DNA from: Balneola sp. MJW-20
GTDB lineage: Bacteria > Bacteroidota > Rhodothermia > Balneolales > Balneolaceae
Direction: 5' to 3'
Assembly: GCF_040811775.1 (NCBI RefSeq)
Contig: NZ_JBFNXW010000001.1
Span: forward strand, 1,178,001-1,242,000
DNA length: 64,000 nucleotides
The notes under the pieces were generated by a model that worked only from the letters and a program-made list of their open reading frames with translations, had not been told where the DNA came from and did not search any database. Below are positions 47,518 through 59,274 of this stretch, piece by piece. The first letter of the stretch is position 1. Each line of letters starts with the position of its first letter. The translations under genes and the position numbers were made by a program.

Positions 47518-48000
47518 CTATGAGGGATAAACCTTCAGGAGTCGGGCGATAAGTAACAACTGTCCGGTATGGTAGGCGTTATGCTCCAGCACTAATAATG
47601 CTTCTCTTATCAGATTCTGTCCGGTACCGTGGTCAAACTTACGGGTAAGATAATTTTCCTTATCCAAGAGTATTTTTCTGAATTCCTTTCTGGTTTCGAA
47701 AAAATCCTCTTTAATTTCTTCCCACTCCTGTTGGTCGGTCGGAGCCTGCTCCATAGGCCAGTATCCGTCGGGCCAGTGTGGTGATTTGTAATCAGGATCC
47801 CTGGTGAATTCCACAATATCTTTTTGTGCAAGGTTTAGGTGCCAGAATTGCTCATAGAATGAGTAAGGAAGTCCTGATGGGCGTATTCCCAGTTTTTCAA
47901 AGGGAATAGCATCCAGAAGATCTTCAATTTTTGCATAAGCCTGACCACCATCCAGATGTTCTGCTAATTTCCGACGTATCTTCTTATTCTTCTTCGGCAT
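47518..48000 (-). CDS. DinB-like family protein
   Basis: A 160-residue helical protein of the DinB/YfiT metal-dependent hydrolase group. The metal-ligand histidines are visible in SFYEQFWHLNLAQ and HNAYHTGQLLLIARLL, and the four-helix bundle pattern is typical. The biochemical reaction is not established for most members, though some are thiol transferases. The ATG overlaps the stop of the nuclease gene by one base (TAATG), so the two are translationally linked despite unrelated functions. Confidence 0.85.
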   Translation of the reverse strand: MPKKNKKIRRKLAEHLDGGQAYAKIEDLLDAIPFEKLGIRPSGLPYSFYEQFWHLNLAQKDIVEFTRDPDYKSPHWPDGYWPMEQAPTDQQEWEEIKEDFFETRKEFRKILLDKENYLTRKFDHGTGQNLIREALLVLEHNAYHTGQLLLIARLLKVYPS

Positions 48001-50582
48001 TATTTGATAAGGGTCATTTTTCTTGTGAGAATAGCACCACCGGAAGTACTCAGACGATAAATATAAACTCCACTTGCCAGCCCTGAAGCATCAAACTGCA
48101 CCTGTTGCCGGCCGGCATTTTGTGGCTGGTCAACCAGTGTAGCAACTTTTCTGCCCATGACATCAAAAACTTCCAGGTTCACTTCAGCAGCCTGATCCAG
48201 ATTGTATCTGATCAGGGTTGTGGGATTAAAGGGATTAGGGTAGTTCTGCTCCAGATCGATTTTCTCCGGTATTCCCTCTTCCCCATCTTCATTGGACAAG
48301 ATCAATCCCAGATCGAAACGCACCCAGACCGGGAAGTGGTCGGAGGTAGTGCTTAAATAACTGCCTATATATGACGGATTCTCAACTCTTTCGGTTCCCT
48401 CGAAGTAATCACCCATCAACTCTGAGGTAACAGAGATATGATCTATAAATGAACCACTACTCTGGGATTCAAAGCCACTGCTTTCAAGACTTTCGGTCAG
48501 AATGGTATATTCCTGATCATCCAGAAAATTCTTATAGGGAGAATCCTGCCCTGCTGTAATGGAAGTGGTAACTTCATCATTATAGTCCCCTATGAAGAAA
48601 ACCTGGTCATCCGGATGCTGGTTATCAAGATATGTTTTCAGCTGAGCAGAAGCATTCAGTCGCTGATCATAGGAATCAAGGTCATCAAAAGCTTTTGCAT
48701 GGATATTGAAGCTGTAGATCTCTTCCTGTATGCCACTGATATTAGTTATGAAGCGGAACATCAGAGGATACCTTCCATTTGCCCAGTCACTTTGCTGCAT
48801 CCCTGTAGTGATTAGACCTGAATCCAAAGAATCAATGGTAGCTCTTTTAAACAAATAAGCTGTTTTCTGAGTCTGAGAAAAATTAGCCTGAAATCCCCCA
48901 TAACCATCCAGTTCTGAGATCAGTTGCTGGAACAGACTACTGTTGGAGATCTCCTGAAAAGCATAAATATCCGCATCTATGGTATTGATCACTGTTTTAA
49001 CGTTCTGCAGCTGAAGGTTGTCATCAGCCGGATCATTTGCAGCAGAGCCAAACCATTCAATATTCCAGGTAACCACTTCAAGTGTCTGGTCTTTGGAGAT
49101 CTCATCTCCCGGGTATGTAATTTCGCTTACTCCCAGATCATCCACAAAACGTGGTTTAAGCTGGTAATCACCGTTAAACTGATCAACAACACCGATCACA
49201 TTCACCGGCTCGGTCGGCGCTGCAGCACCCACAATATTAGTGCTGTTATCTATACGGATGAATCCGTTTCCGGAAGCATCTGCAATATCATAATTCGTGT
49301 TACCCTGAAATGAACCGGCATCCAGAAACTCTACGTTTTGTATAAGGACCAGCTGCCCTTCATAGTCTCCAGAGTTCATTTGCTGAAGAGTGATCACCTT
49401 TGGAGTAACTTCTTTTGGATTAGCCTGCACTATGGTATAAGAAACATCAGGATCTGAATCGGTAGCAGCGATCTGGGTAAGGAAGTCACCTTCAGGACCT
49501 GAAATCGGATTGAATTCGGTCAGTGGTCCGGATACGATCACTGAATCACCAATAAAAGCCGTTTCATGAAGTGCTGGAAAGAAGACCGCAATACCAGCGG
49601 TTTCATCCTGCATAAACAGCGGACCTTCAAATTCATTTCCAACTGTAACCCGCCCTGCTACCGTTACACGGGTACCAAAATCCTGCTGCCTGGCATCAGC
49701 TATGGGTATAATTGCGCCCTCAGCCACTCCTTCAGCGGAAAGATTGATATTGTATTCCGGAGCATTAACAGCATTACTGTTGATCGTCAGACTTCCCTGG
49801 TACTGATCCACAGCCTCCGGACTGAAGGTAAGCGTCAGTTCTGTAGATTCATTAAATGCCAGGGCGTCATTTTCCAGAGTACTGATACTAAATACCGAAC
49901 CTGCTACGCTTACATTATTAACAAAAAGGGTGTCTTCTCCGCGATTTCGGATCCGAATAGTCCGGTCGGTTACTGATCCTGCCTGAGTGGAAGGCATTGT
50001 CAGAGTACCGCCATCGGCCTGTAGTTCATTATCCGCAAATACATCTATAGTCGGATCAGCTTCAGGTACTATATAATCATAAAGGATAACGTCATCTATA
50101 TTTACCCGGTCACCGGCTTTCATTTCGAACCGAAGCCTTACTTTAGAATTCACATTGATATCGAGTTCTCCGGTCTGCAGTTGAGAAGTTGCAATAAATT
50201 CGTCCCCAACATTAATCCAGTTTGCTCCGCTATCGGTTGAATAACGTACCTGAATCCGGCCTCCGGCATCACTACCGTAATTGGCGTATTCAAAAGTGAC
50301 CTTACTAACCCCATCGGGTTTATCGAAAAGCATATATATCTGCCCTCTGTTTCCTGAACGCAGATCAAGCCGGGCTGCTTTCGAACCGTTCTTCTTATCA
50401 TTTCCCAGATCTCCCAGCAGAGCCCCATCGAAATACCAGGTACCGGTATTTAATTCAACACTGGCGCCGGAATAAGAGCTCTTTGTTCCACTCTCGAAAT
50501 TTTCGGCTAACTGAGCGTGAGTCAAGCTCGGCATTATCAATAATAACAATACAATAAAGGAAGAATAAACTGTTCGAATCAT
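48000..50582 (-). CDS. Secreted endonuclease/phosphatase with type IX sorting tail
   Basis: An 860-residue extracellular protein with a Sec signal (MIRTVYSSFIVLLLLIMPSLTHAQ). In order: a jelly-roll-like ligand domain (~25-175), a DUF1573-type Ig segment (NRGEDTLFVNNVSV, ~180-290), an OB-fold (DARQQDFGTRVTVAGRVTV, ~295-480), an endonuclease/exonuclease/phosphatase domain (VVTWNIEWFG, DADIYAFQEISN, FFIGDYNDE, TTSDHFPVWVRF, ~500-750) and a T9SS tail (LEQNYPNPFNPTTLIRYNL...TLIK). The catalytic pattern is that of Mg2+-dependent nucleases; extracellular DNA or nucleotide scavenging is an inference. It overlaps the DinB gene by one base. Confidence 0.88.
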   Translation of the reverse strand: MIRTVYSSFIVLLLLIMPSLTHAQLAENFESGTKSSYSGASVELNTGTWYFDGALLGDLGNDKKNGSKAARLDLRSGNRGQIYMLFDKPDGVSKVTFEYANYGSDAGGRIQVRYSTDSGANWINVGDEFIATSQLQTGELDINVNSKVRLRFEMKAGDRVNIDDVILYDYIVPEADPTIDVFADNELQADGGTLTMPSTQAGSVTDRTIRIRNRGEDTLFVNNVSVAGSVFSISTLENDALAFNESTELTLTFSPEAVDQYQGSLTINSNAVNAPEYNINLSAEGVAEGAIIPIADARQQDFGTRVTVAGRVTVGNEFEGPLFMQDETAGIAVFFPALHETAFIGDSVIVSGPLTEFNPISGPEGDFLTQIAATDSDPDVSYTIVQANPKEVTPKVITLQQMNSGDYEGQLVLIQNVEFLDAGSFQGNTNYDIADASGNGFIRIDNSTNIVGAAAPTEPVNVIGVVDQFNGDYQLKPRFVDDLGVSEITYPGDEISKDQTLEVVTWNIEWFGSAANDPADDNLQLQNVKTVINTIDADIYAFQEISNSSLFQQLISELDGYGGFQANFSQTQKTAYLFKRATIDSLDSGLITTGMQQSDWANGRYPLMFRFITNISGIQEEIYSFNIHAKAFDDLDSYDQRLNASAQLKTYLDNQHPDDQVFFIGDYNDEVTTSITAGQDSPYKNFLDDQEYTILTESLESSGFESQSSGSFIDHISVTSELMGDYFEGTERVENPSYIGSYLSTTSDHFPVWVRFDLGLILSNEDGEEGIPEKIDLEQNYPNPFNPTTLIRYNLDQAAEVNLEVFDVMGRKVATLVDQPQNAGRQQVQFDASGLASGVYIYRLSTSGGAILTRKMTLIK

Positions 50583-52183: not shown

Positions 52184-52216
52184 AAAAAAAGAGACCCTTG
52201 CTTCCGCCCGGGTCTC
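52184..52216 (-). terminator. Intrinsic terminator of the TonB receptor-surface protein operon
   Basis: GAGACCC (52191-52197) with GGGTCTC (52210-52216) and a 12-base loop, followed on the minus strand by a run of seven T, 56 bp after the stop at 52272. Confidence 0.8.
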
Positions 52217-52271: not shown

Positions 52272-53981
52272 TTACTTGATCAGCGTCATTTTACGCGTGA
52301 TCGTGGTATTATTACTTACAAGCCGGTAGATATAGACACCACTTGAGAAATCAGCTGCATCAAATACAACCTGATTGCTGCCCGCTCCGAATCGCTGCTG
52401 ATTTGCCAGTGTGGCTACTTCCTGTCCCAGCATATTGTATACCTTGATCGTTACTTTCTGGGCCTGTGGTAATGAGAAGCTGATATTGGTCGTAGGATTG
52501 AAAGGGTTAGGGTAATTCTGTTGAAGAGTGATGGATGATGGGACGTCGCTACCTACTTCGTCTTCATTAGAAACGCTAACCTGACTTACATATCCCAATT
52601 CGTCCAGCGCGGTCCAGCCCGTTATCCATAAGTTATTGGGGGCAAATGCACCCACATAATCATTATTATCGAAAAAAGGGTCTGTCAGATCTTTAACAGC
52701 AGATGCATCCAGTGCCGGAGATCCTGCAGATGGACGGGGATCCAGGCCATTTGAACCTGCTGTTCTGCTAATGCCTTCAAATGCGGGATCCGCAACACGA
52801 TTACCGTTTACAGCATTACTGAGATAGTCACGGGTATGGGTCTGGTCGTCATCACCGTCATCTGCGGCAAAGTCTGTGATCGTATTACCAGCACCAAAGC
52901 CCCACCATAGGTTATTCTGAAGGATGAGGTCTCCTTCTTCTAACCGGGTTTTGGAATCGAAATCAGCCACTGAACCCTGGCTCTCTATTGAAATACCCAG
53001 TCCGGCGTGGTCACCGAATATGGAGTTGTAATACTCACCGCCGGTATTATCACGAAATATGAGCAACTGCTCTCCGTCGCCAGCATTGTTAGTAGCATCA
53101 ATACCTGCTCCCAGGTAAGTTGCGTTATTTATGACCGGGCGTGCAATAGGTGAAGTGTTCTCATCTCCGGTTGCTCCATCCATTTCAGCTGCACGGCCAT
53201 AACCGTCATCCGGATTTCCGGGGCTTTGTATTGCAAACCAATACTGATGCTTACCGCGGAATCCTTCATCCCAGTCGAAAGCATCGTCGGTATTAAAAGC
53301 CGAGACCAGGTATCTTGTATTTACGGTTCCGCCAAAGAATTCAAATCCATCGTCATTAGACGCAATAGATTCAACATACTCTATAACTGTACCCGAACCG
53401 ACACCACCAAGGGTCAACCCTTGAATTTCATTTCCGGCAGCATCTCCAACATTAATACCTGTGTGACGAATCGAAACATAACGGAGTACACCGGAGGTAT
53501 CGTTATCAACCGTTCCGCCATATCGTGCATACGCTTCCGGGTTTGCGATCTCATTAACCCCTTCAACTAATTTCGTGCCATCTGCTGTCGGGTTGTTTGT
53601 AGAGGCATATCCCAAAATAACCACCCCTCCCCAAAGTCCGCGGTCTAATTCAGTGAGCGTACCATCATCAAATTCAGAAGTAAAGATAATGGGGTCTTCT
53701 GCAGTTCCTTCAGCATATATCTTTGCCCCCTGAGTTACTACAAGTCCTGTTGCACTGTTACCTGAACCAAACACTCCCTGTATCACCGTACCGGGTTCTA
53801 TGTTCAGAACAGATCCGGGTTTAACAAAAATCATCTCCGTTAAGAGATAAACATTATCGCTTGTCCAGGTGTATTCCTGATTTTCCTGAAGATCTGCATC
53901 AGCTATCTGTACCACAGTTTGTGCATATGCACCGGCTGAGAATATTAAAACAGCCAATAATAATGTGTATCGTTTCAACAT
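52272..53981 (-). CDS. T9SS-exported repeat surface protein
   Basis: A Sec signal (MLKRYTLLLAVLIFSAGAYAQ) and a T9SS tail (LQQNYPNPFNPTTNISFSL, VYNMLGQEVATLANQ, ending RKMTLIK) frame a 569-residue protein. The body looks like a beta-helix-type fold: FVKPGSVLNIEPGTVIQG, YVSIRHTGI, and the strongly patterned NDDGFEFFGGTVNTRYLVSA with DDAFDWDEGFRGKHQYWFAIQ, rich in Asp and Trp. Such proteins are usually annotated only as surface or 'multidrug transporter' by habit; I cannot assign a function. It lies 26 bp after a TonB receptor, so both act on the same ligand or structure. Confidence 0.82.
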   Translation of the reverse strand: MLKRYTLLLAVLIFSAGAYAQTVVQIADADLQENQEYTWTSDNVYLLTEMIFVKPGSVLNIEPGTVIQGVFGSGNSATGLVVTQGAKIYAEGTAEDPIIFTSEFDDGTLTELDRGLWGGVVILGYASTNNPTADGTKLVEGVNEIANPEAYARYGGTVDNDTSGVLRYVSIRHTGINVGDAAGNEIQGLTLGGVGSGTVIEYVESIASNDDGFEFFGGTVNTRYLVSAFNTDDAFDWDEGFRGKHQYWFAIQSPGNPDDGYGRAAEMDGATGDENTSPIARPVINNATYLGAGIDATNNAGDGEQLLIFRDNTGGEYYNSIFGDHAGLGISIESQGSVADFDSKTRLEEGDLILQNNLWWGFGAGNTITDFAADDGDDDQTHTRDYLSNAVNGNRVADPAFEGISRTAGSNGLDPRPSAGSPALDASAVKDLTDPFFDNNDYVGAFAPNNLWITGWTALDELGYVSQVSVSNEDEVGSDVPSSITLQQNYPNPFNPTTNISFSLPQAQKVTIKVYNMLGQEVATLANQQRFGAGSNQVVFDAADFSSGVYIYRLVSNNTTITRKMTLIK

Positions 53982-54007: not shown

Positions 54008-56920
54008 TTAGAAGATATATGAGACACCTAAAGAGATGGTTCTGCCCAGTCGGTAGGACTGATAAATAAACTCTTCATCATCTAATTCGTGAGACAGCCT
54101 GATATCGGGATCAAGCAGATTCTGACCAGATAACTTTACAGAAAGTCCGTTCCGCAAACTCTTACTTGCAACCAAGCCAAGTGTAGAATACCCTCTCTCA
54201 AATACATCAGGTATCGCGCCTAAAGCCACGGAGTTGAGGCGATCGCCAAAATGATTAAAGCTTGAATTGATACTCAGTCCGGAATTGGGGTTAAAGTACT
54301 CCAGATCAAGATTGATCAGGTAGGGAGACTGCCCTGTAAGCTGTCTGTATTTATCAGCATCCGGGTCGTTTATTCGGATATTAAACAGCTCAGCATCGGG
54401 TATTCTGACCCTTGATTCAACGAATGTCAGATTACTTGAAAAGGAAATGTTTCTGAACATATCAGCCATAAAACCCAGGTTCTTCCTTAATTCAAATTCA
54501 ACCCCGTAAACCTGAGCATCCGGGACATTTCTAACAGTTTGGGCCCGGTTTATGTCTACCCTTACAACCCGTTCAATCGGGTTTGTTAGGTCTTTATAGA
54601 ATGCAGACACTGCAACTATCTCATTTACATTCGGGAACCATTCCCATCGGATATCAGCATTTTTAATAAGGGTTTGTTCCAATCCGGCATTACCGGAGAA
54701 AATAAAGTCACCAACAAAGTCGAAGGTTGTATATGGAGCAAGTTCTCTGAAGGTTGGGCGAGCAATTGTATTCGTATAAGATGCACGAATATTCATCGAC
54801 TCGGTGACCGAAAATACTGTACTGATCGAAGGCAAGAGATCAATATTATCCAATGATCCTATTTCAAGAGTACTATCAGCTGAAATAGTATTTATCTCCG
54901 CTCTCTCCTGACGTAGCCCGCCGACTACCTTCAGCCATGAAGTTACTGGCAATTCAAACATACCATACAATGCAAAGATCTCTTTATCTGCTTTATATGT
55001 ATTCTTTATGTTTGATGCATCACGAAGCGTATTACCAAATATCGGACGACCTGAACTTTCTGTTTCAACGATACCGGTATAACCGAAATACCCATTTACA
55101 TTGTCCATGAAATCTGTGAATGATAACGGAGCTCTAGTACCGCTTAGATACTCAAATCTGCTTTCGGTGAAATTCCTGTCGACCTGCTGATAATAAACAC
55201 CGGTCTTAAAAATCGCTGTGTTTCCGCTAAGGAATCGAAATGGAAGTGAGTAATCAGCAAAGTAGTTAACACTTTCTTCATCCAGATCGCGGAAGAATCT
55301 TGCCGGCCGCTGTATCAATGCAGTGGATAGTGATAAGAACTCATCTCCGGTTGCGGGGTCTGTTCTTCTGAGGAAGGTAAGGAATCTCAGATCTGGCTCT
55401 TCCTGTGTATTATTGGCAAGGGACACGTTCCAGTCTATTTGTGAGTTACCTAGCCCTGGAAATACATGCTTTCCCTGCAACTGATATGATCTTAATGACC
55501 TTTCAGTATAACTTATTACAGATGATTCATAAATATCATTTGGCACTTCATCAGTCCAGATACCAGAGAGATTCCTGCCATAATGGGTCGCATTCTGAGT
55601 GATCAGCACATTAGAAGACAGCCTATTATTATTGTCGAGCTTATAGGATAGACCAAAAAGTCCCCCCAAGTCTACACTTATCGATCCTTTAGAATCATCG
55701 AGATCAAAAAGATTTGTTAGTCCGTTAGATTCATCGAGCCCACCAATCAACTGCCATCTTCCGGTCTTACCATCAGTGTAATTGGTGGCAGATCTACCAT
55801 AGCTCAGACTGGCGGAGTATCCTAAAGCATTTCCAAACAGTCGGGCCTGATTGCCATAGGAAATACTGGTACTGGTGTTGATCGGGAGTGTCCTCATCAT
55901 CGGAGCCATTTCGCTGTTAAAAGCGGTGGTGAACTGGTCTAGTGTCTGCGCAAGTGCAGGATCAAATCGCGCTGCTGTTTCAGAAGGAACAGTAAAACCC
56001 GGCTCCGACTTTAGGTCCTGAACCGCTTTTGGGATATCCCTTAGTCCATTGTCAAATGCTAAAAGATCACTGCTGCTGGTCTGTGAAAGAAAACCCTGCT
56101 GACCTGTAGATAGCGTATTATAGGATGATGAAAAGGAAACGGAAAATGTCTCTGATTCCGGGAAGGACTTTGTATTTACATTAACGAGTCCACCCGAGAA
56201 ATTTCCCGGCTTATCCGGAGTAAATGATTTAAGGGTCACGATATTTTCCAACAGATTTGACGGAAAGATGTCAAACTGGAATGATTTTCGATCAGGGTCA
56301 GCAGAAGGCAATTCCACACCATTGAGATGTGAGCTGGAGTAGCGGTCTCCGAGTCCCCTTACATATACATATTTCCCGTCTATTACAGAGGCTCCTACTA
56401 CTTTCTTCATGACGCCTGTGGCATCACCCACACCGGTTTTGGATATGGTTTCTGCTGAGATGGCATCACTGAATGCAATGGACTTTTGTCTTTCGCGCAG
56501 CAGGCCGGCTTCATTATTCAGGATAGCAGCTGCAGAAACTACTACCTCATCCAGCATTTCAGTTTCTTCCTGAAGAGTGATGTCAAGTTGTAGCGTTTCT
56601 CCGTCCCCTACCTTTACTCCCTCAATAAGCTGGGTTGCATAAGAAATATAGGTCACTCTCAGGGTATAGGTACCCGGTGCTACATTAGAAATAGTATACC
56701 GACCATCCAGGTCAGTTGCCGTTCCTTTGGTGGTGGTGTTTATAACTACATTAACACCAATAAGGGTTTCACCAGTCTCGGCATCAACTACTACACCGGT
56801 TATTTTACCGGCATTCTGTGCATCTACTGTAGATGAGAAGAGCAGTGCAGAAAAAAGAGTTAATATGACCTTTTTGAAATTCACTTGTGTGCAGATTTGT
56901 TTGGGTTCACGCTTTATCAT
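54008..56920 (-). CDS. TonB-dependent receptor with carboxypeptidase-like N-terminus
   Basis: Outer-membrane importer of 970 residues from ATG 56920. After the signal (LTLFSALLFSSTVDAQ) comes a CarboxypepD_reg-like domain (GKITGVVVDAETGETLIGVNV, ~38-110), then a plug of the Oar/TIGR01782-like type: AISAETISKTGVGDAT, VRGLGDRYSSSHLNGVELP, SFTPDKPGNFSGGLVNVNTKSF. The barrel ends LGVSYIF. A GTG at 56884 (VNFKKVILTLF) is a credible alternative start, favoured if transcription begins near 56920 as the -7-like TTAGTTTG at about 56926-56933 suggests. The upstream gap is filled with 11-bp-phased repeats. It is co-transcribed with the T9SS surface protein. Confidence 0.93.
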   Translation of the reverse strand: MIKREPKQICTQVNFKKVILTLFSALLFSSTVDAQNAGKITGVVVDAETGETLIGVNVVINTTTKGTATDLDGRYTISNVAPGTYTLRVTYISYATQLIEGVKVGDGETLQLDITLQEETEMLDEVVVSAAAILNNEAGLLRERQKSIAFSDAISAETISKTGVGDATGVMKKVVGASVIDGKYVYVRGLGDRYSSSHLNGVELPSADPDRKSFQFDIFPSNLLENIVTLKSFTPDKPGNFSGGLVNVNTKSFPESETFSVSFSSSYNTLSTGQQGFLSQTSSSDLLAFDNGLRDIPKAVQDLKSEPGFTVPSETAARFDPALAQTLDQFTTAFNSEMAPMMRTLPINTSTSISYGNQARLFGNALGYSASLSYGRSATNYTDGKTGRWQLIGGLDESNGLTNLFDLDDSKGSISVDLGGLFGLSYKLDNNNRLSSNVLITQNATHYGRNLSGIWTDEVPNDIYESSVISYTERSLRSYQLQGKHVFPGLGNSQIDWNVSLANNTQEEPDLRFLTFLRRTDPATGDEFLSLSTALIQRPARFFRDLDEESVNYFADYSLPFRFLSGNTAIFKTGVYYQQVDRNFTESRFEYLSGTRAPLSFTDFMDNVNGYFGYTGIVETESSGRPIFGNTLRDASNIKNTYKADKEIFALYGMFELPVTSWLKVVGGLRQERAEINTISADSTLEIGSLDNIDLLPSISTVFSVTESMNIRASYTNTIARPTFRELAPYTTFDFVGDFIFSGNAGLEQTLIKNADIRWEWFPNVNEIVAVSAFYKDLTNPIERVVRVDINRAQTVRNVPDAQVYGVEFELRKNLGFMADMFRNISFSSNLTFVESRVRIPDAELFNIRINDPDADKYRQLTGQSPYLINLDLEYFNPNSGLSINSSFNHFGDRLNSVALGAIPDVFERGYSTLGLVASKSLRNGLSVKLSGQNLLDPDIRLSHELDDEEFIYQSYRLGRTISLGVSYIF

Positions 56921-56955
56921 TACGCGAATCAAACTAATACACACACTTTGTGTAA

Positions 56956-57028
56956 CTGTTAACGGCCCGTTATCCTTCTGTTATGTACCCGTTACCTATA
57001 TGTAATCAGCCTGTTAACTGAATATTAA
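56956..57028. promoter_or_regulatory. Seven 11-bp-phased repeats, PhoB/PhoP-box-like array
   Basis: Units start at 56956, 56967, 56978, 56989, 57000, 57011 and 57022 and read CTGTTAA, CCGTTAT, CTGTTAT, CCGTTAC, ATGTAAT, CTGTTAA, ATATTAA, each followed by a 4-bp spacer. On the receptor-coding strand they read TTAACAG, ATTACAT, ATAACAG and so on. The 11-bp phase and 7+4 layout are those of PhoB/PhoP-type boxes. The array fills the gap between ftsH and the TonB receptor start. Confidence 0.6.
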
Positions 57029-57037
57029 CAACCTGAC

Positions 57038-59149
57038 TCAGGATTCAGAATCGGATCTTTCAGTATTTTTTTCGGATTCTGCTGATTCTTCTTCAGCTTT
57101 TTCTTCAGGTGTTGTTTTTTCGGGCGTAGTTTCGCTTTTAACCGATTCGTCAGCTTCTTTTTTCTCGGATTTCACTCCGTTTGTAACTGGTCGGGCATCG
57201 TCATCAAATATCCCTTCCGGGTATTTACCATGAGGGCGGTCGCCCAGAAGATCTCTGAGGTCGTGATGATTCAGCACTTCTTTCTCAAGAAGGGTCTTGG
57301 CCAGTTTCTCGAGCTCATCACGATGTTTATTGAGCAGTTTGAGTGTTCGATCGTGATTCACTTTTATGATGCTTCGTACCGCTTCATCAATCTCTTCAGC
57401 CGTTGCCTGTGAATACTTTCGGTTAAATCCGTAGCTGTTGTCGGGATTCTGAGAATCCTTCAGTGAGATATAACCCAGCTCATCACTCATACCATATTCA
57501 GCTACCATAGCATAAGCCATGGTGGTGATCCGCTCCAGGTCATTCTGAGCACCGGTTGAGATTCGTCCGAAAATGATCTCCTCAGCTACCCTTCCTCCAA
57601 GTAGGGCACAGATCTTTTCATTGAGTTCTTCTGTGGTCATAAGGAAGCGATCTTCCAGCGGAGTCTGAAGTGTATATCCCAGGGCAGCAAGTCCACGCGG
57701 CACTATACTTACCTTCAGAACCGGATCGGTATGCTCCAGGAACCATCCTACAACAGCATGGCCGGCTTCATGATAGGCCACGATCTTCCTTTCATCAGGA
57801 CTAATGAGCTTATTTTTCCGCTCCAGTCCGGCAATTACTTTCTCAATGGAATCCTGGAAGTCCACCATTTCAATGGCCTTTTTATTCCTTCTGGCTGCCA
57901 GCAGAGCGGCTTCATTACAAAGGTTCGCCAGTTCAGCACCTGCAAAACCGGGCGTTTGTGATGCAAGTACCTTTAGATCGATACGCTCTGACATCTTCAG
58001 GTTCTTGGTATGAACTTTAAGGACTTCCACCCTTCCGTTCAGATCCGGTTTGTCGATCATGATCTGACGGTCAAATCGGCCGGGACGTAAAAGCGCATTA
58101 TCGAGTATATCCGGGCGGTTGGTAGCCGCCATCAGTATAACTCCTTTGTCTGAGTTAAAACCGTCCATCTCACTCAGGAGCTGGTTAAGGGTATTTTCTC
58201 TCTCATCATTTGATCCCATGGCCATTCCCCGTCCTCTGGTTCTGCCAATTGAATCGATCTCATCAATAAATATGATACATGGTGCATTTTCTTTGGCCTG
58301 TTTGAAGAGATCACGTACTCTTGCAGCACCTACCCCTACGAACATTTCAACAAAGTCGGAACCACTCAGGCTGAAGAAAGGAACACTTGCTTCACCGGCG
58401 GTAGCTTTTGCAAGCAGCGTTTTACCGGTTCCCGGAGGGCCTACTAATAACACACCTTTTGGCAGTACTCCGCCCAGTTTAGTGAATTTTTTTGGATTGC
58501 GGAGAAACTCAACGACTTCTTCCACTTCTGCTTTGGCTTCGTCCAGTCCGGCTACATCATTAAAGGTGACTTTGGTCTCCTTCTGTTTATCATACAGTGA
58601 GGCTTTATTCTTACCAATATTCAGTACCTGTTGTCCGGGATTCATTCTTCTGAAAATGAAGATCCACAGAGCGATGGCAAGTCCAATCGGTATCAGCCAA
58701 ATAAATACACCACTGAACCAGTCCTCTTCAATTCGAACATCATAGACTACCTCATTGGCATCAAGGATCGGGCGAATATCATCTCCGCGCAGCATCGTGG
58801 TATTAAACCTCGGTCCTTCATTCACTTCACTGGAGAACGGAAGTGAATTGGAATCTTCGGAAGGAGGCGCAACAATTCCATCCTGGATAGCTTTATCACT
58901 GAATACTCCGTTGATCTTTACCCCGTTGGTGATGCGGATCTCATCAACATATCCCTGTTCCACATATTCGAGGAACTGACTATACTTTAAGGTATTTCCG
59001 GTATCCGGGTTAAAGAACAGGATCTGTGCAGCCAGCAAAGCAAAGAAAACAAGGAATATACCCCATGCAGGAAACTTCGGAGTGTTCCCCGGTTTATTAC
59101 TACCGGGAGGCTTAATAGTCTTTTTCTTATTTGAGTTATTTTGCGCCAT
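57038..59149 (-). CDS. ftsH: ATP-dependent zinc metalloprotease FtsH
   Basis: Membrane-anchored AAA protease for quality control. The ATG at 59149 gives 703 residues. TMs at ~28-46 and ~147-167 flank a periplasmic domain. Walker A GPPGTGKT is at 237-244, Walker B FIDEID near 294, the second region of homology [18 protein letters not shown] follows, and the zinc-binding HEAGH is at 460-464 with the third ligand further on. The last ~60 residues are a Glu/Lys/Ser-rich tail, longer than in E. coli. The gene ends just before the phased repeats of the TonB receptor promoter. Confidence 0.98.
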
Positions 59150-59274
59150 CAAAAATCGATTGAAAATATTTATTTAAATATAACGAAGATACAGCTTAAT
59201 TGACTTCCTGTTTTAGCAAGTCTTGCATCCGTTAATGTAACCCAGGTTTGGCAAAAAACGTGCCATCTGATTTA

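Follow-up and report, generated by a model that had tools for sequence, protein, structure and literature searches.

The gap between ftsH and a TonB-dependent receptor gene of Balneola sp. MJW-20 contains seven direct-repeat units at exact 11-bp steps (positions 56952–57028, minus strand, which is the gene strand). This array is likely a PhoB operator, i.e. a tandem Pho box that would switch on the operon of the TonB receptor and its beta-helix partner at low phosphate. The Pho-box reading, already proposed in a first-pass annotation of the DNA, is supported by conservation of the array before orthologous receptors, by arrays at pstS, and by a PhoB orthologue linked to pst in three relatives. 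From these comparisons, we infer that PhoB binds the array and that the operon responds to phosphate. The parts of the system are of known kinds; what would be new is a defined operator and its preferred geometry in the Balneolota group. The window refers here to the whole 64-kb stretch of DNA that was analysed.

Organization of the array

On the gene strand the seven units read TTAATATTCAG, TTAACAGGCTG, ATTACATATAG, GTAACGGGTAC, ATAACAGAAGG, ATAACGGGCCG and TTAACAGTTAC, and they start at positions 57028, 57017, 57006, 56995, 56984, 56973 and 56962, respectively. The unit consensus is (A/G/T)TAAC(A/G)-N4-(G/C), that is, a TAAC core followed mostly by a purine. Unit 1 (TAAT) and unit 3 (TTAC) are the weaker ones. 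The first-pass annotation had counted seven units at exactly 11-bp steps, and this count and period are borne out. It had written the units as CTGTTAA/CCGTTAT; the repeats are real, but that spelling belongs to the complementary strand, and they are best read as TTAACA-type units on the gene strand.

The regularity of the array was scored in an unbiased test that allows any 4-base core and periods of 8–14 over six units. The window array scores 23, whereas 300 shuffles have a mean of 16.2 and a maximum of 20, so that none of them is as regular. All four three-unit TAAC matches of at least 11/12 in the 64-kb window lie inside the array. A Pho box consists of at least two direct-repeat units with an 11-bp period, and seven such units are present here. 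The assignment of 56952–57028 as a predicted PhoB operator is based on the shuffles and on a unit consensus common to this array and the pst arrays.

The receptor operon

The receptor (54008–56884, minus strand) is a TonB-dependent outer-membrane protein with CarboxypepD_reg, plug and barrel domains. Its start is most likely the GTG codon at 56884, chosen because orthologues keep that start, as judged by eye. The upstream neighbour, ftsH (57038–59152, minus strand), has its stop codon 9 bp before the array. With the receptor start at 56884, the gap between the two genes is therefore 153 bp. The array does not fill almost the entire gap, as had been claimed earlier; it occupies only the upstream half, and a -7-like element and the leader follow downstream.

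The second gene (52272–53981, minus strand) begins 26 bp after the receptor gene and encodes a secreted protein, predicted to be a right-handed beta-helix, with a T9SS sorting tail. The receptor gene thus adjoins a gene for a secreted pectin-lyase-fold protein, as in the ElpS/FII–TonB pairs described below. A terminator-like hairpin (GAGACCC...GGGTCTC with a T run; 52184–52216, minus strand) lies 3' of the second gene and ends the two-gene unit; it was spotted by eye, and a terminator scan of the window did not list it. The 26-bp spacing and the hairpin support the earlier proposal that the receptor and the T9SS surface protein form one transcription unit. In an alignment of 16 partner sequences including that of the window, the beta-helix has invariant acidic motifs, DDG.E.FGG and DD..D.D, which look like a metal or active site. 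Near the operon, positions 48000–50582 encode a protein with T9SS sorting that combines DUF5689 with an endonuclease/exonuclease/phosphatase domain; the scan of the 64-kb window finds no Pho-like array upstream of this gene.

Conservation before orthologous receptors

The receptor was searched for in 97 related genomes, all of which have some match, and DNA upstream of the best 30 loci was scored with a simple pattern of four TAAC units at an 11-bp period (maximum 16). A score of at least 13/16 is reached at 26 of these 30 loci in the last 300 bases, and at 27 of the 30 with somewhat longer upstream DNA. With the longer DNA, three loci stay under 13/16: L004 (score 12), L029 (where the match begins inside the gene) and L030. 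By comparison, shuffles average 8.8–10.1 and six other periods give 8–12. Thus, the presence of the array before orthologous receptors, which the first-pass annotation had made a test of its reading, holds for the large majority of the best loci. Among the orthologues the phase of the array is kept and the spacer sequences vary between genomes; the number of units is 3–7 before receptors and 4–6 before pst. The T9SS partner is found in 26/30 and ftsH in 20/30 of the fetched loci (flanks of up to 1.5 kb).

In far relatives, a set that contains at least one Balneolaceae record (L206), the 11-bp array occurs in 36 of 130 upstream regions (33 of 72 loci), compared with 0–3 of 130 at any other period tested. 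Two Latescibacterota loci (L159, L160) have receptor and beta-helix genes followed directly by pstC-pstA-pstB-phoU. At a Gemmatimonadales locus (L165), PhoB-like and PhoR-like genes directly precede the receptor/beta-helix pair.

Arrays at pst and other genes

The Balneola genome was searched for three TAAC units at 11-bp steps with at most one mismatch. The matches are the window array, a dense array upstream of pstS, a third array, a 16S rRNA match, and scattered single matches. The second array places the operator also before the pst operon of the same genome: it lies ahead of pstS-pstC-pstA-pstB-phoU and a Porin_O_P porin gene, and TAGTTTTG follows the last unit at a distance of 14 nt. Receptor and pst arrays agree outside the scoring core as well, with a purine at unit position 6 and G/C at position 11.

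Among 30 PF12849 (pstS) loci of relatives, 28 of which are above the family cut-off, a four-unit array lies upstream of 14, the Balneola locus included (13 of the 29 others), and three further loci have two units. The four-unit array is absent from 16 of the 30 upstream regions, where L061 offers only 83 bases and two further loci, L075 and L076, do not reach the family cut-off. In a phylum-wide draw, 27 of the 30 top pstS loci lack it; of the three that have it, one is the Balneola locus and one belongs to its family. No PF12849 match is found in 29 of 58 relatives, and nine relatives without one keep the receptor array (L003, L012, L014, L016, L017, L019–L022). These nine, together with the phylum-wide result, mean that operator and pst do not always go together and that long arrays are lineage-dependent. 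The expectation that similar arrays would be found near known pho genes is borne out in the Balneola genome and in nearly half of the relatives' pstS loci; in the phylum-wide draw, long arrays before pstS are rare.

Within the family, 58 genomes contain 96 four-unit matches (40 genomes have at least one) versus 12 for a reversed control pattern. By a reading of the list, matches of the 16S rRNA type account for 19 of the 96, and Rfam confirms three of these. Besides those at the receptor, at pst and at the third gene described below, arrays precede the gene of a phosphate-selective porin that is divergent from pstS (L128, L269), a pair of Metallophos and glycosyltransferase genes (L125), and a GDPD gene (L127). 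At 16 viewed sites, out of about 19 remaining four-unit sites in relatives, no phosphate gene is clearly downstream.

The third array of the Balneola genome (G000:C2:47188-47226; L041/L114), with TTAAC/TTTAC units at 11-bp steps, is recurrent and occurs also at L080, L092, L093, L094, L097, L099 and L262. In L262 and in five of six other relatives viewed, the gene downstream of it encodes a small exported protein, and in those five a small protein of a ~50-aa type follows the exported one. In the Balneola genome and L092 the array fronts only the ~50-aa-type protein. One protein of each kind was run against Pfam, with no match. At L080 no -7 element is seen by eye at the usual spacing.

The candidate regulator

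The Balneola genome encodes four OmpR-family regulators. For one of them (contig C3:61948-62622; L110:1045-1722), the best NCBIfam model is PhoB, with scores below the cut-offs (234 of 296 bits for TIGR02154 and 217 of 270 for NF053854). The gene of a kinase adjoins it, and the best NCBIfam models of this kinase are PnpS and PhoR, also below the curated cut-offs. Orthologues of the PhoB candidate with at least 59% identity are present in 55 of 58 relatives, where other matches do not exceed 45%. At E 1e-40 the orthologue is absent from G022 and G026, and G078 has only a distant match; G022, a genome that is 93% complete, carries the array.

Three gene neighbourhoods of the orthologue were examined. 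In G001 and G011, pstS-pstC-pstA-pstB-phoU continues on the same strand into the phoB orthologue and the gene of its kinase; in G059 these two lie beside pst on the other strand. All three pst operons have the array. In the Balneola genome itself the phoB candidate is not beside pst. With orthologues in all but three of the relatives and pst nearby in each of the three neighbourhoods examined, this protein is likely the Pho regulator of the group, and the PhoB homologue that the first-pass annotation took for granted does exist.

Operators with direct repeats of about 10–11 bp are common among OmpR-family regulators. The array could accordingly be the operator of one of the three regulators other than PhoB, for example one that responds to redox or envelope conditions, with pst merely one of its targets. 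In Riemerella anatipestifer, the OmpR-family regulator PhoP recognizes the same core (DAP-seq motif TTTAACA), and the discussion of that study concerns adaptation to redox conditions, not phosphate (PMC9603813). It differs from the case here in that the excerpted text mentions neither an 11-bp array nor a phosphate role (PMC9603813). The viewed sites that lack a clear phosphate gene and the third recurrent array also point in this direction. However, all co-targets that could be given a name, the receptor aside, are phosphate genes (pst, Porin_O_P, Metallophos with glycosyltransferase, GDPD), and nearly every relative has an orthologue of the PhoB candidate, which is linked to pst in the three neighbourhoods examined. 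We regard a different OmpR-family regulator as unlikely, while it is the strongest of the alternatives.

Promoter geometry

In Bacteroidota the -7 consensus is TAnnTTTG. Matches of at least 5/6 to this consensus were recorded downstream of the arrays, and distances were taken from the start of the last TAAC. The matches fall in one phase in 20 of 25 receptor, 8 of 9 pst and 24 of 29 far-relative cases, compared with 10.8% in shuffled DNA. Exactly 14 or 25 nt separate the last TAAC from the -7 element in 50 of 63 matches (receptor 20/25, pst 7/9, far relatives 23/29), related sequences not being independent events and the three sets being in agreement. Expressed by arrays, the same distances are found for 20/27 receptor, 7/14 pst and 22/36 far-relative arrays.

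In the window, the predicted -7 region is TTAGTTTGA (56929–56937, minus strand). The best match to TAnnTTTG, TTAGTTTG (5/6), lies 24 nt after the last TAAC, one base off the preferred distance, whereas TAGTTTGA (4/6) lies at 25 nt, the distance conserved in orthologues. In known PhoB promoters such as those of E. coli, the operator stands in for the -35 element, just upstream of the -10, and the placement of the arrays in relatives resembles this. The 14/25-nt spacing fits activation and leaves the -7 element open.

In the window promoter, an inverted repeat (56899–56934, minus strand) shares bases with both the -7 region and the predicted start of transcription; its fold z is -3.2 with the -7 element placed by hand at 25 nt. 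A fold z of -2.7 or lower is found in 11 of 24 receptor promoters examined versus 1 of 12 pst promoters. The inverted repeat occupies the same place in L005–L010, L013, L014, L016 and L023, several of the eleven being close relatives. Its arms vary between genomes and, as judged by eye, stay largely complementary.

A TCAGCAC motif is present in 13/30 receptor and 6/30 pstS upstream regions versus 2.3% of shuffles. It lies just before the receptor start codon in L002, L003, L005–L011, L013, L014, L016 and L023, and in the pstS leaders of L048, L049, L053, L056, L059 and L067. The window receptor leader has CTGCACAC in its place, and TCAGCACA is about as frequent across the window as expected (2 occurrences versus 1.9).

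It could be argued that PhoB does bind the array but represses the operon, or that the array acts mainly as a high-occupancy decoy that buffers PhoB; in favour are the inverted repeat across the -7, a hint of additional control at this promoter, and a number of units greater than activation needs. The open -7 element at 14/25-nt spacing, which resembles activator promoters, and the reported induction of ElpS and FII by low phosphate (PMC2996285, PMC8115612) make either role very unlikely. That the periodic repeats arose by chance or by a decayed tandem duplication, with no regulatory role, is extremely improbable: the core is AT-rich and the 16S rRNA genes show that unrelated 11-bp TAAC matches exist, but this explanation is contradicted by the shuffles, by the phase (and not the spacer) kept in 27/30 orthologues, and by the promoter phasing.

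Relation to known systems

The B. subtilis Pho unit is TTAACA. With the Pho boxes of E. coli, Bacillus and Streptomyces, the arrays described here have in common tandem 11-nt units upstream of pst or other phosphate genes and the presence of PhoB/PhoR. A Pho box is made of 11-nt direct repeats whose consensus varies by species, and the unit core is CTGTCAT in E. coli and GTTCACC in S. coelicolor (PMC4415409), in contrast to TTAACA here. By our own comparison, the complement of the E. coli unit resembles the TTAACA unit of the gene strand. A second difference from the E. coli Pho box is the downstream element, which is of the Bacteroidota type TAnnTTTG. Streptomyces operators have varying unit numbers and are classed as simple or complex (PMC4415409). 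Seven units do exceed the two to four that the first-pass annotation considered usual, but because unit number varies in Streptomyces they are not unheard of. A Bacteroides fragilis Pho box is mentioned without its sequence in the excerpted text of one report (PMC3547664), and no published definition of a Pho box for Balneolota or the wider Bacteroidota was found in the excerpts of the literature searched.

The receptor and its partner resemble two systems described in other bacteria. In Caulobacter crescentus, ElpS (CC_0170) is made specifically under phosphate starvation and is encoded next to the TonB receptor CC_0171, whose gene is expressed in rich and poor media (PMC2996285). The arrangement in the window is similar in that the gene for a surface or secreted protein adjoins a TonB receptor gene. 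ElpS has a lipoprotein anchor, whereas the window partner has a T9SS tail; several partners in Balneolota relatives have lipoprotein-like starts, as judged by eye. In Flavobacterium johnsoniae, the phoBR cluster includes the TonB-dependent transporter Fjoh_0545 and the pectin-lyase-fold exoprotein FII (Fjoh_0546), both of which show large increases at low phosphate (PMC8115612). FI and FII are related to ElpS, and FII is called a lipoprotein (PMC8115612). The term "Pho box" is absent from the main text of that report. Here, too, a TonB receptor adjoins a pectin-lyase-fold exoprotein. A PF04101 glycosyltransferase is part of the F. johnsoniae phoBR cluster and is also found near the receptor pair in L140. 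The F. johnsoniae pair lies in the phoBR cluster, whereas the Balneola pair adjoins ftsH. Based on fold, gene order and the statements of these papers, the window pair may be described as resembling ElpS/FII.

A model for the array and its implications

We propose that phosphorylated PhoB would bind the array head to tail, with each 11-bp unit taking one protomer and all protomers lying on the same face of the helix. The downstream-most units would occupy the -33/-35 position, from which PhoB would recruit RNA polymerase with the Bacteroidota-type primary sigma factor to the -7 TAnnTTTG. The receptor and its surface-sorted beta-helix partner may then bind a phosphorus source or set it free, so that it can be taken up through the outer membrane, a role already proposed for Caulobacter ElpS/CC_0171 and the Flavobacterium FII cluster. 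Our confidence that the array is a PhoB operator is slightly lowered because the window -7 element departs from the spacing rule and because of the 16 viewed sites with no clear phosphate gene.

A more tentative and rather doubtful extension is that a TTAACA 11-bp Pho operator, locked at 14/25 nt to TAnnTTTG, is common to Bacteroidota and neighbouring phyla, with the longest arrays on the ElpS-like/TonB pair. The inverted repeat over the -7 might then add a second layer, by which outer-membrane phosphorus capture forms a sharper and separately tuned branch of the Pho response relative to pst uptake.

If the PhoB reading is true, it would provide a usable definition of the phosphate-starvation operator for Balneolota, and probably for a wider Bacteroidota group: TTAACA units at an 11-bp period, with TAnnTTTG at a spacing of 14 or 25 nt. 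An orphan TonB receptor and its T9SS partner would become a testable phosphorus-scavenging module, and phosphate regulons would become predictable for these bacteria, which are known from the sea and from saline environments.
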